Assembly: GCA_019096065.1 (NCBI GenBank)
Contig: JAGUCH010000008.1
Location: forward strand, 935,001-999,000
Origin: Paracyclopina nana
Lineage: Eukaryota > Arthropoda > Copepoda > Cyclopoida > Cyclopettidae
Reading direction: 5' to 3'
Length of the DNA: 64,000 nucleotides
Shown here: positions 6,740-39,791 of the stretch, in pieces
Position numbering within the stretch: the first letter of the stretch is position 1
Layout: each line of letters begins with the position of its first letter
Made by a program: the position numbers and the translations under genes
The notes under the pieces: model-generated
Told to the model about the DNA's origin: nothing
Database searches by the model: none
The model's input: the letters and a program-made list of their open reading frames with translations, nothing else

Positions 6740-8831
6740 ATGAAGAGCACAGCTACCACAATCAGTTTACTCCAATTTGTCTTCCTGCTAATTGTTGGCA
6801 TTTGCCACTGCAAGCCACAAGTCAATTTTGGTAAGTGATTATGGAATGTTTGGTATGTGCTTTGGCTCAAGCTCAGACCCATGAAAAATGGAGCTAACAC
6901 AGGAATTTGAAAGGTTGCATTTTCCCCTAGGTCTTGCCTTTTCATTGGTGCCATCAAAAGAAGATGTCTTCATATCTACCTCAAACTACAATGCACCTAA
7001 ACCTAGTGTGTTTAAGGTGGAGCCTGCACCTACTTATGAGATCATTGAAGAACCTTCTAATAATGGTGGAGTTCTGGGTGAAATGAGCAGATTTGTCAAA
7101 ACAAGCATTGATAAGGGTGTCAAAGTGATCAAGGACTTTGTTAAGCCAAACAAACCTTCTTCAGGCTCTTATACAGTGTCTTCAAGCTCCTACTCAGCAC
7201 CTTCAAGCTCTTACTCAGCACCTTCAAGCTCCTACTCAGCACCTTCAAGCTCCTACTCAGCACCTTCTAGCTCTTACTTAGCACCTTCAAGCTCCTACTC
7301 AGCACCTTCTAGCTCTTACTCAGCACCTTCTAGCTCTTACACTGCACCTTCTAGCTCAAATTCTGCAGCTTCTTTTACTGTAATTCAAGGTAAAATTCCT
7401 TTTAAAAGTTTATTTAGCAGAAGTGGCCCGTTAGCTCAGTTGGTTAGAGCGTGGTGCTAATAACGCCAAGGTCGTGGGTTCGATCCCCCCACGGGCCAAT
7501 AATTTTTTCCCCTTTTTTTCAGATGTTGAAGCCCCCAAAATTCCTTCTTTGACTTTTACCACTCCAGATTCATTAAGGCCTTCTAGCCAATTGGGATCTT
7601 TTGCACCTCAACTCATAAGTACTCAATTAAGAAGAGAAGATGTCACCACTGAAGATCCAAGTTTTGGTGGGCAGAAGAAGAAACCTTTGGCGGGCAGGCC
7701 AGCCAAAAATGATGCCAAAAAGAAGTCCAAAGGCAGGAACAAGCCAAAGGCCAGCCTGCAAGACACCTTTGCACCTACAAAAGCTGAAATTGACAGAAGG
7801 CCAATTGTCTTTTTTGACCTGACCATAGATGACATTCCGGCAGGAACTGTATTTTTTGAGCTATTCAATGAAACAGTTCCCATTACAGCTGAGAATTTTA
7901 GGGTTTTAGCTACAGGTAAAAAAACCTCACATTTTCTATTTTCAAGTGGCTAAAAAGCAGTTACACAACAACGGATTGTGAAGGCCAAATTTCTTGCACA
8001 ATGTGGCCATCATAATAAGCATATTTTCCTCCTATTGCAGGCGAGCTTGGTTTTGGTTACAAGGAATCGAGTATGCATCGAATTGTCTCTGGTTTTGTTG
8101 TCCAGGGTGGAGATTTCACAAGCAGAGATGGCAATGGGCAGATGTCAATCTATGGGAAACTATTTGAAGATGAGAACTTTTTGATTCCCCATGACTCCCC
8201 AGGTATTTTCATTGATCTGAAGATACCTCAAAAATTGATTTCACAATATCAATATTTCTAGCAAAATTCATTTGCTTGAATAGCAAGAAGGTAGCGTGGC
8301 CGAGCGGTCTAAGGCGCTGGTTTAAGGCACCAGTCTCTTCGGGGGCGCGAGTTCGAATCTCGCCGCTGCCAAAACTTTTTTCCTTTAATTTCCAGATTTT
8401 TTTTTTTTTTTTTTTGCTCTCATCTCAAGGTTTTTAACTGCCACAGAATTTGCTAAAAACAGTCAAATATGCTGCGTTAAATATGGCCCCATATTAGGAT
8501 TGCAAGTGTTTTTTAGGTTGTATTTTGCTCTCGTTGCCTAATGAAGCAAAAACACCAAAAAATCCAGAACTCACTGGTTCGAACCCCGGTTGATGCCCTA
8601 TTTTTTTCAGGCCTTTTATCTATGGCAAATGAAGGTCCAGACTCGAATGGATCTCAGTTTTTCATCACTGTCACGCCTTTGAAGCAACTGGATGGAAAGC
8701 ACGTGGTTTTTGGCCGAGTCCATGATGAGACTTCTTACAAATTAGTGGAGAGAATCAACAAAGAATGCGGAAGTGAAAATGGAGCTCCATTAAAGGCTGT
8801 AAAAATCATCAATTCAGGCCAATATCGATAG
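6740..8831 (+). CDS. Secreted cyclophilin with resilin-like N-terminal repeat
   Basis: Five exons (6740-6830, 6931-7389, 7523-7915, 8041-8202, 8611-8831) total 1326 nt and encode 441 aa; every intron is phase 1. Residues 1-25 are a signal peptide ([20 protein letters not shown]). Residues about 114-175 are a run of PSSSYSAP-type repeats like the elastic motif of arthropod resilin. Residues 234-258 are Lys-rich. Residues 276-441 are a complete cyclophilin (peptidyl-prolyl isomerase) domain with [19 protein letters not shown] and LDGKHVVFG, so the equivalents of Arg55, Phe60, Gln63, Phe113 and His126 of human CypA are kept. Trp121 is Gln, which predicts weak cyclosporin binding. An AATAAA lies at 8864-8869. 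Introns 2 and 4 contain tRNA genes. A role in extracellular matrix or cuticle folding is inference. Confidence 0.82.
7425..7498 (+). tRNA. tRNA-Ile (anticodon AAU)
   Basis: The 74-nt cloverleaf has a perfect 7-bp acceptor stem (GGCCCGT/ACGGGCC). The D-arm is GCTCAGTTGGTTAGAGC. The anticodon loop CTAATAA between TGGTG and CGCCA gives AAU. The T-arm is GTGGGTTCGATCCCCCC. An oligo-T Pol III terminator follows at 7503-7508. The gene lies wholly inside intron 2 of the secreted cyclophilin gene, in the same orientation. Confidence 0.95.
8290..8371 (+). tRNA. tRNA-Leu (anticodon AAG)
   Basis: The 82-nt class II tRNA has an acceptor stem GGTAGCG/CGCTGCC with one G-T pair. The anticodon stem CTGGT/ACCAG encloses loop TTAAGGC, giving AAG. 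It has a long variable arm (TCTCTTCGGGGGC) and T-loop GTTCGAATC. Oligo-T follows at about 8376. It lies in intron 4 of the cyclophilin gene, in the sense direction. Confidence 0.95.
8560..8600 (+). other. Possible decayed tRNA 3' fragment
   Basis: CTGGTTCGAACCCCGG resembles a tRNA T-arm with a B box (GGTTCGAACCC), sitting just upstream of the acceptor of cyclophilin intron 4. Stem pairing is imperfect, and I see no matching D-arm or acceptor stem upstream. Confidence 0.3.
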
Positions 8832-8916
8832 TGAAGAATCTTCTTCTTCTTTTAATGATGCCAATAAAGACTTGTTCAAATAATTCAGCATTAGATTTCA
8901 CTCACCTCAGTTCAGC

Positions 8917-11151
8917 ATGGATTGCTTCAAAGTTAACATTGTCCTGGCTTTTAGCTTAATTTTGCAGACTTTTCATGCATCAGCTGGTATAAGCTAAAAA
9001 ATATTATTCAAAAAAGACTTCAATTTCCAAACATGAATTTAATTTAAAAAATATCTAAATATTTGGCAGAAAAAGTAGTTTTTTAGATTGTTAATAGATT
9101 TTTAGATTATTTTAACATTTAGTTTTATTAATTTTGTTTTTTGGCAGATAATCCTAAAGTTGTTATGCATTTTGGAATTGGTGAGGATCAAAGTCATTTA
9201 GGTCACTTAGCCCTCAATCTTTTCATGGATCAAGTTCCAGTTACAGTTAACAACTTTTTAGCCTTGGCCACAGGTAAAAAATATTGTGTTAGTTACCACA
9301 TAATAAAAAAAGGATACAAGTATTTCTTGGAAGGCAAATGTGGATTTGGATTGGTGGGCTCCACATTTCACCGCATTATTCCAGGATTTATGATTCAAGG
9401 TGGTGATTTCACCAATGGGGATGGCACAGGGGGAAGAGCAATTTGTGGGGAAAAGTTTCCAGACGAAAACTTCAATCTAAATCATGACAAACCAGGTAAA
9501 CATAACAAAAACATAATTTCTCAAAAATGCATCTATACAAAGAATTTTCACTACAATTTTTAATACTATTTGTAATATTTATATGTATTTTTTTACTTAA
9601 TGGCAAATTTTTATATTTAATGCTTAATATTTATATTTATTGTTTAATAGTAGCATTGCATGGATAATTGTGACATTTTTAAAGTAAGTGCAATATTATT
9701 GATACAATTATTACATTTTTAAGTAAGTGAAATGTAATTTAAATTAGAAATGTAAATTAGAAATGTAACTTTAGCATTTATAAGTAATATTGATGATTTA
9801 AGCTTGGATTTATTTGTGAAAATGCAATGATTAAAAATGTAAAATATTTGTATTTTCACAGTTTTTCTTTAATTTTTTGTAATTTTGTTTCAGGGGTTAT
9901 TTCGATGGCCAATTCAGGTCCGGACTCAAATGGCTCGCAATTTTTCATCACTTTTGGCCCGCAACCTCATTTGGACGGGAAGCACGTGGTTTTTGGCGAA
10001 ATCGACCCAGTTGACGAGAATTCACTGGCTTTTTTGCAAGTCCTCGAGAAATATGGATCAGACTCAGGAGAACCAACTGAAAAATTGTCCATAATTGGCA
10101 TGGAATATTCTGGAATTCCAGATGACAACATTTCTTGTATGTGCTAATAAAAATTTGCTTTGAAGTTCTTCAAGACATAAACATGAAAAAATAATTTGAT
10201 TTATGCCTTGGCATTAATTTTGTGTATTGATTGAGGTGAAAGTGAAATGGCCTCTTTTGTGGGATTCATCTATGAAAATAAAGAGTTAATTTGCCAAGGA
10301 GTCATTTTAAGCCAATTTCACATATTGACAGCCTCAATTTGTTTACATCAAGATGGCTTCATTGACTACAGCTATTACAAAACATTGGAGGCAAATTTAG
10401 CTAGAAATGTTTTGCATATTTATTTTTTGAATTATTTTGCAGTTTTGGACTGGAGCTAAAGAAATGAAGACACTCAAAGGAATTGCCTTTCATCCTGGCT
10501 ATAAGCCTGAAAATATCCTGGCTTCAACTGAACATAACCTTGCTCTGGCCTTGCTTAACTCAAAATTAAGCTTAAATAATGAAATTGTGAAATTGCCTCA
10601 TTTGCAAGACTTGACCATGCAAAAAAGAAGTGGGCAATTATGTGAAGTGTCCACGCTTAAAACAATCATTTCAATGGAGTCAAAATGCTCATTAGTCATT
10701 TCTGAGGCTGGAAAGTCCATAAATCATACATTTCACAATTCCACTTTTTGCCTGGATTTTCATCAGCAAAATGTCAGCTCATGTGAAGTAATTTTAAAAA
10801 AGTGTCTCAAGTGTTGCAACAAAAAATCACCAGATGGCGCATCTCTGTTGCGATACTGATGTCTATAGGCACATGATTATTATTTTTCAGATTGCTTCAG
10901 GAGCTCCAGTGATTTGTGCAAAAAAGGGCCAGAATACACTTTTGGGTATCAATGCCACTGGTGCAAAATGGTGCTCAAGATTGGCCATAGTTTTGTTAGA
11001 ACCACCCTCCATTTTTGTGTCACTTCCATACCATATTTTTTGGATGAATTCCACTATGGCTGATAACTCAAATTTCAAGTCTAGCAAGGCTAGCAGAAGC
11101 CAAGTGAGCTTAAATGTATTTTTGCTAGTTCTCTCAGTGCAACAAAGCTGA
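8917..11151 (+). CDS. Secreted cyclophilin fused to serine-protease homologue (pseudoprotease)
   Basis: Proposed exons are 8917-8986, 9148-9273, 9334-9495, 9894-10136, 10236-10390, 10443-10787 and 10891-11151. They total 1362 nt and encode 453 aa. Residues 1-23 form a signal peptide. A cyclophilin domain follows ([34 protein letters not shown]; the Trp121 position is His). It then joins, through donor TT/GTATGT at 10137 and acceptor TTGAG at 10235, to a chymotrypsin-fold domain. There ILTASIC replaces LTAAHC and HNLALALL replaces NDIALLKL, so His57 and Asp102 are lost; SGAP keeps a Ser at position 195. It is therefore predicted to be proteolytically inactive. If the 99-bp intron is not spliced, translation stops at 10147 after 203 aa, leaving a cyclophilin-only form. 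An AATAAA lies at 11357-11362. The exon 5/6 junction is uncertain: either a 52-bp GC-AG intron or a 34-bp GT-AG intron. Confidence 0.68.
9274..9333 (+). other. 60-bp intron without stops (possible exitron)
   Basis: The second intron of the cyclophilin-SPH gene is 60 bp (GTAAAAAATA...TTGGAAG). It is a multiple of three and has no in-frame stop. Removing it gives the canonical [16 protein letters not shown] alignment; keeping it would insert 20 residues before the active-site loop. Confidence 0.55.
10827..10841 (+). promoter_or_regulatory. CTCF-like motif in the last intron of the SPH gene
   Basis: TCACCAGATGGCGCA matches 13 of 15 consensus positions. It sits between the two SPH-domain exons. 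Confidence 0.35.
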
Positions 11152-11253
11152 CTGAAATCACCCAACCTTTCCATTAACTCAAAAATATTGTACATCTATT
11201 GAGGAATATTCAGTGTATTCTAAAGTCCAAAATGTATCTCTGAAAGGTCAGTA

Positions 11254-11440: not shown

Positions 11441-39791
<28,351 letters not shown>

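Follow-up and report, generated by a model that had tools for sequence, protein, structure and literature searches.

Along one strand, a signal-peptide-like exon, a cyclophilin and a trypsin-like reading frame beginning 88 nt past the cyclophilin stop follow one another so closely that the question arises whether they are routinely spliced into one secreted protein, or whether they are two genes sharing a single signal exon. The locus lies in a window of 64,000 nt, which is the whole stretch of DNA analysed here (C8:935001-999000 of a 92 Mb genome in ten contigs), and all positions refer to this window unless a contig is named (Table 1). Our preferred reading, to which we give a probability of about 0.5, is that a cyclophilin cassette is nested in the first intron of an S1A serine protease homologue (SPH) gene, that both use the same signal exon (hereafter E1), and that the fusion is not the default product. 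An earlier note on this DNA had proposed the fusion, joined at 10136/10236; several of its observations stand, and they are discussed below where the relevant evidence is given.

Both domains are well supported. In a Pfam search of the joined model, the cyclophilin matched PF00160 with 132.4 bits (curated cut-off 21.7, E 2e-38) and the SPH matched the trypsin profile PF00089 with 45.9 bits (curated cut-off 20.6, E 8e-12), and beyond these two the search returned only a sub-threshold DUF316 match. The query of the Pfam, PDB and genome searches was a model still carrying a 20-residue insertion, encoded by 9274-9333, from the reading of 9148-9495 as a single exon; this reading was replaced after a home-made profile-to-genome alignment, with a profile built from five single-exon cyclophilins of the same genome, removed the segment at a position common to the upstream cyclophilin (gene 1). 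The segment, which has no in-frame stop, can also be retained as coding sequence, and its removal restores a canonical cyclophilin. Together with 10391-10442 and 10788-10890 in the SPH, it is one of three introns that the earlier note did not have; that note had correctly placed the end of the cyclophilin frame at TAA 10145-10147 and an AATAAA at 10146, and had rightly observed that the downstream trypsin-fold frame has no signal peptide of its own nearby. The exon E1 (8917-8986) is signal-peptide-like by its hydropathy.

Table 1. Features of the cyclophilin-SPH locus, in window coordinates.
Feature	Position	Strand	Basis or remark
E1, shared signal-peptide exon (preferred reading)	8917..8986	+	Phase-1 donor at 8987; hydropathy; resembles exon 1 of the SPH relative rel4
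Cyclophilin cassette exon 1	9148..9273	+	PF00160; donor at 9274 CAG/GTAAAA, score 10.0
Cyclophilin intron, 60 nt, phase 1	9274..9333	+	Same profile position and phase in gene 1
Cyclophilin cassette exon 2	9334..9495	+	Profile-to-genome alignment
Cyclophilin cassette last exon	9894..10147	+	PF00160; stop TAA 10145-10147
AATAAA overlapping the cyclophilin stop (TAATAAA)	10146..10151	+	Stops of rel3 and rel4 overlap AATAAA too
Putative fusion-isoform intron, 99 nt	10137..10235	+	Weak donor 10137, family-conserved acceptor 10235
SPH exon after the family's phase-1 intron	10236..10390	+	Catalytic His position is Ile (LTASIC)
SPH intron, 52 nt, GC-AG	10391..10442	+	Family's second intron position, off by one nt
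SPH exon, catalytic Asp position is Asn	10443..10787	+	Alignment to relatives
SPH intron, phase 0	10788..10890	+	Family position before xDSGGP
SPH last exon and stop	10891..11151	+	ASGAP replaces DSGGP; hydrophobic C-terminal tail resembling a GPI signal (putative GPI)
12-mer TCACCCAACCTT, 6 nt past the SPH stop	11158..11169	+	Identical 12-mer 10 nt past the rel4 stop

In human CypA numbering, Arg55, Phe60, Met61, Gln63, Phe113 and His126 are aligned in the cyclophilin, including the motif LDGKH, and the position of Trp121 is occupied by His; prolyl isomerase activity is predicted. Gene 1, whose domain spans about 7.8-8.83 kb, has introns at both cassette profile positions and in the same phases, and a more distant neighbouring cyclophilin (L039) has one cassette intron in common, whereas the combination of position and phase was absent from the 12 other modelled cyclophilins, the nearest intron being two positions off (C2:14.38M). 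A common origin with gene 1 was unsupported (45/0) in a tree of 15 cyclophilin genes, from which two match sites (C4:757666 and C5:5344058) were left out, but the shared introns do support one. Furthermore, at the border where an intron and E1 precede the focal cyclophilin, gene 1 and L039 instead continue upstream of the domain for at least 60 open codons.

The downstream frame belongs to a group of proteases with hydrophobic tails. Four relatives, rel1-rel4, are arranged in two tandem pairs at C1:897.9-900.3k and C1:763.4-765.9k (L044, L046-L049, L051), with weaker candidates elsewhere in the genome. In a tree of 35 rows that included 30 other trypsins of the genome, the focal SPH and the four relatives constitute one clade (support 100/98), and an HMM of the four relatives gave 99.3 bits for the focal SPH, against 72.6 for the next of the 30 other trypsins. 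The focal SPH is 27-32% identical to the relatives, which are 25-36% identical among themselves; six cysteines are common to all five members, and all five end in a hydrophobic tail, which suggests a GPI or membrane anchor. The loss of catalytic residues reported in the earlier note was borne out: His is replaced by Ile and Asp by Asn, the Ser is kept in ASGAP by alignment, and the preceding Asp position holds Ala. Both His and Asp are kept in all four relatives, and the catalytic Ser is replaced (by Ala) in rel3 only. Since rel3 has lost Ser and keeps His and Asp, while the focal SPH shows the reverse, inactivation within the clade probably arose twice.

Intron homology ties position 10236 to this clade. 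The relatives have introns of phases 1, 2, 1 and 0, of which the focal SPH has the first and fourth at the same place and in the same phase, the second within one nt, and lacks the third. In each of rel1-rel4, a signal exon is followed by a phase-1 intron of 53-60 nt directly before an exon starting with xEAPF (EAAF in rel1 and DAPF in rel3), and the sequence before EAPY in the candidate L052 also fits a phase-1 acceptor. The focal exon from 10236 starts with xGTGAAAGT..., at the same place and phase as the exon of the relatives. Acceptor 10235 is thus very probably the ancestral intron-1 acceptor of the SPH, and the phase-1 acceptor recognised in the earlier note holds, with the homology to the relatives' intron 1 as its support. 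In rel4, the open reading frame finishes with LAEQ and its stop lies inside CAATAAA, the gene model ending two residues early.

These observations also bear on whether the SPH is still expressed. The cyclophilin might be the only product of the locus, having taken over the signal exon of an SPH that fell silent recently and persists as a remnant; the missing catalytic residues, the cyclophilin's own 3' end and the combination of a GAG acceptor with a GC donor within one short gene all fit this view, and the two unusual splice sites could be signs of decay. However, the three SPH exons together hold an unbroken frame of about 250 codons, with a branch length of 1.32 changes per column, and the SPH has kept the six family cysteines and 26 of the 42 columns that are invariant in the four relatives. 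Such conservation speaks against a long period of silence, though a recent one would be compatible with it, and we regard the remnant explanation as distinctly improbable.

A further issue is to which gene E1 originally belonged. In the 400 nt upstream of 10236, the search for an SPH signal exon (an ATG stretch of 15-60 codons ending at a phase-1 GT) returned a single stretch, which is not hydrophobic, and thus the SPH is without a signal exon where its relatives have one; E1 ends 1249 nt from 10236, whereas the signal exon of the relatives ends within 60 nt of the acceptor. We compared E1 with exon 1 of the four relatives, over six spans, using as a null 371 hydrophobic ATG starts from genome loci, with loci overlapping the focal region removed. 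From the ATG to +110, E1 scored 53.0 against rel4 exon 1 (null mean 25.7, sd 6.6), a value reached by none of the 371 null starts, and the extended span from -100 to +110 scored 83.5 (null 44.3, sd 9.6), again with 0/371 as high. For exon 1 of rel1, rel2 and rel3, null starts scoring as high numbered 35, 234 and 283 of 371, respectively. Taken alone, the 5' flank of the E1-rel4 comparison (21/371) and the span from +60 to +120 (33/371) both lay within the null distribution, and a blastn search with the E1 region gave no match better than E 1.9 in the region upstream of rel4. The focal-rel4 pair was the strongest of the ten pairs among the five clade genes; most of the other pairs, though homologous, were not above the null, which indicates that the exon-1 test is insensitive. 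In the protein tree, rel4 is not the neighbour of the focal SPH. Past the stops of these two genes, the identical 12-mer TCACCCAACCTT is absent from the other loci examined, except those covering the focal region, and its chance expectation in the window is 0.03. The evidence that E1 resembles rel4 exon 1 can thus be considered good but not conclusive. As E1 resembles the signal exon of one SPH relative, the nesting of the cyclophilin in SPH intron 1 is the more economical reading.

Alternatively, the SPH might have a private promoter and signal exon within the 398-nt intron of the cyclophilin, where hydrophobic stretches from an ATG to a phase-1 GT are present (ATG 9527 with GT 9585, strongly hydrophobic; or ATG 9827 with GT 9918, weakly so). 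Stretches of this kind are prone to arise by chance in AT-rich DNA, three distinct ATGs (one of them that of E1) being found against 0.86 (sd 1.02) in 100 mononucleotide shuffles, and none of them ends within 60 nt of the acceptor, unlike the signal exons of the four relatives; hence, a private signal exon is highly improbable. An origin of the SPH 5' end by spliced leader (SL) trans-splicing was rejected, as the product from ATG 10248 would lack a signal peptide; for cyclopoid data, PMC4664967 reports no copepod SL matches.

With regard to the junction itself, the phase-1 join of 10136 to 10236 is arithmetically right and the joined frame is open, as the earlier note stated, but among the 18 GT/AG pairs formed by the 2 GT in 10100-10148 and the 9 AG in 10150-10330, 4 give an open joined frame, so that an in-frame join by itself does not exceed chance expectation. 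One alternative, 10140/10243, would encode a fusion of 452 aa. Splice sites were scored with 43 training introns, comprising 16 from rel1-rel4 and 27 from 30 trypsin loci (36 introns were found in these loci, of which the 27 forced by a frameshift or stop were kept and 9 dropped). The donor at 10137 (CTT/GTATGT) scored 1.75, which is equalled or exceeded by 53% of the 3062 + strand GTs of the window; in the training set, 5 of 43 donors have no higher score than this one, and for the E1 donor at 8987 (score 3.85) the figure is 14 of 43. The base at -3 of the training acceptors was T in 20, C in 12, A in 9 and G in 2, which makes the GAG of acceptor 10235 atypical. Of the proposed pair of splice sites, then, the acceptor withstands scrutiny by its position at the family's phase-1 intron, despite its unusual TTGAG, while the donor stays at background level.

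Three open joins are available at the locus: the cyclophilin only (203 aa), E1 to SPH (276 aa) and the fusion (453 aa). Their mature forms contain 4, 8 and 11 cysteines, respectively, and six of the 8 in the form that skips the cyclophilin fall in columns conserved in 5/5 SPH members. Extracellular proteins usually have even numbers of cysteines. The counts of 4 and 8 for separate products, against 11 for the fusion, mildly favour separate products.

The claim that E1, cyclophilin and SPH are routinely joined through 10136/10236 into a single secreted, C-terminally anchored protein can now be weighed. The frame is open and one model carries Pfam matches to both domains, the acceptor occupies the position and phase of the family intron, the 99-nt intron is of ordinary length, and a linker could be provided by the approximately 12 residues that separate the Pfam match from the donor; on the other side stand a donor no better than an average GT, the 4/18 open pairs, the AATAAA overlapping the cyclophilin stop, and the odd number of cysteines. 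We consider routine fusion unlikely, although the fusion may still arise as one isoform. A full-text search of the openly licensed PMC literature yielded no recognised cyclophilin-trypsin fusion. Of the secreted cyclophilin-pseudoprotease envisaged in the earlier note, the two domains are real, whereas the fusion as main product is not established, given its donor, its cysteines and the position of the AATAAA; the cyclophilin-only form that the same note derived from intron retention fits the stop and AATAAA.

The preferred reading, nesting with a shared signal exon, can be put as a sequence of events, for which we infer the direction of insertion, the cassette source and the isoforms made from sequence features. 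An SPH gene of the hydrophobic-tail protease clade would have received, in its phase-1 intron 1 and in the same orientation, a three-exon cyclophilin cassette, most likely from the tandem cyclophilins next door. A phase-1 acceptor at the start of the cassette would have allowed it to be read behind the SPH's own signal exon, and the cassette has a stop and polyadenylation signal of its own at its end. A transcript with E1 spliced to 9148 and cleaved after 10151 would encode the secreted cyclophilin of 203 aa; splicing of E1 straight to 10236 would give a secreted pseudoprotease of 276 aa with a C-terminal hydrophobic anchor; and if the weak donor 10137 were used in place of the polyadenylation site, the fusion of 453 aa would result as a third product, made in small amounts or under certain conditions. 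Phase 1 is common to all the joins, whether from E1, inside the cassette or into the SPH. A single cassette arrival would explain why the cyclophilin has a signal exon and the SPH is missing one, as well as the shared phase 1, the intact 3' end of the cyclophilin and the weak donor. Against the skipping of the three cassette exons, it should be noted that an intron of 1249 nt is needed, whereas the 27 forced protease introns measure 31-297 nt.

A further proposal, which we put forward tentatively and regard as rather unlikely, is that this one signal exon serves, by way of matching phase-1 introns, all three outputs: a prolyl isomerase in soluble form, a pseudoprotease with a membrane tail, and a fusion of the two at the cell surface. 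The choice would depend on competition between the weak donor 10137 and the polyadenylation signal 9 nt downstream, and such a locus would show exon shuffling in nature at a stage intermediate between nesting and fusion.

Several known systems share some of these features. TRIMCyp arose when cyclophilin A was copied into the TRIM5 locus of some primates, and resembles the present case in that a cyclophilin copy lies inside another gene, behind the upstream exons of that gene. However, TRIMCyp is a retrocopy without introns and yields a fusion, whereas the focal cassette keeps its introns (the two common to gene 1) and its own end, and probably shares a signal exon; it is thus no intronless retrocopy. 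Arthropod serine protease homologues have an S1A fold without catalysis. The focal SPH is like them in its trypsin fold, conserved cysteines and lost catalytic His and Asp, and differs in the hydrophobic C-terminal tail and in the cyclophilin lying between signal exon and protease exons. Secreted cyclophilins of the cyclophilin B type likewise combine a signal peptide with a PF00160 domain behind it in which most active-site residues are present, but the signal exon of the focal cyclophilin is apparently borrowed, and the position of W121 (human CypA) is His. Nested genes and alternative terminal exons that share a first exon are a known kind of arrangement, to which this locus would correspond in having one first exon and two alternative 3' parts; it differs in that the folds encoded by the two parts are unrelated and that introns of matching phase 1 join them. 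For a shared signal-peptide exon, no match was found in the openly licensed PMC literature.

If the nested reading is true, a folding enzyme gained secretion by landing in the first intron of a gene for a secreted protein, without evolving a signal peptide, and the phase-1 introns made the capture of the signal immediate. The locus would also be an intermediate of gene fusion, in which one partner still has its stop and polyadenylation signal and the other its splice acceptor. More generally, little weight attaches to an in-frame join past a stop codon as evidence of fusion, as 4 of 18 splice pairs would produce one here.

Other features of the window and genome were also recorded. Gene 1 may extend over 6885-8831, from SSSYSAP repeats and a Lys-rich stretch, and is perhaps a second unusual cyclophilin architecture; its repeat part had no Pfam match. 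A tRNA-Ile(AAT) lies at 7424-7499, just upstream of the gene 1 domain exon, and a tRNA-Leu(AAG) at 8290-8371, within the intron between two gene 1 exons. Only 85 nt separate the gene 1 stop from the E1 ATG (8831-8917), and the gap between rel1 and rel2 is 14 nt, with ATGCCTTTGATGTTTTTT duplicated; such very compact neighbours on the same strand are perhaps polycistronic. In the genome, there are 80 Chitin_bind_4 matches, which point to an arthropod, and at least 38 LNR matches, which are reminiscent of the cyclopoid copepod Oithona, for which PMC8301441 describes an LNR expansion; Blo-t-5 had no match, a negative that its control showed to be uninformative. Finally, two long minisatellite arrays, at 24786-26187 and 29243-30316, have a like unit in opposite orientation, + in one and - in the other.
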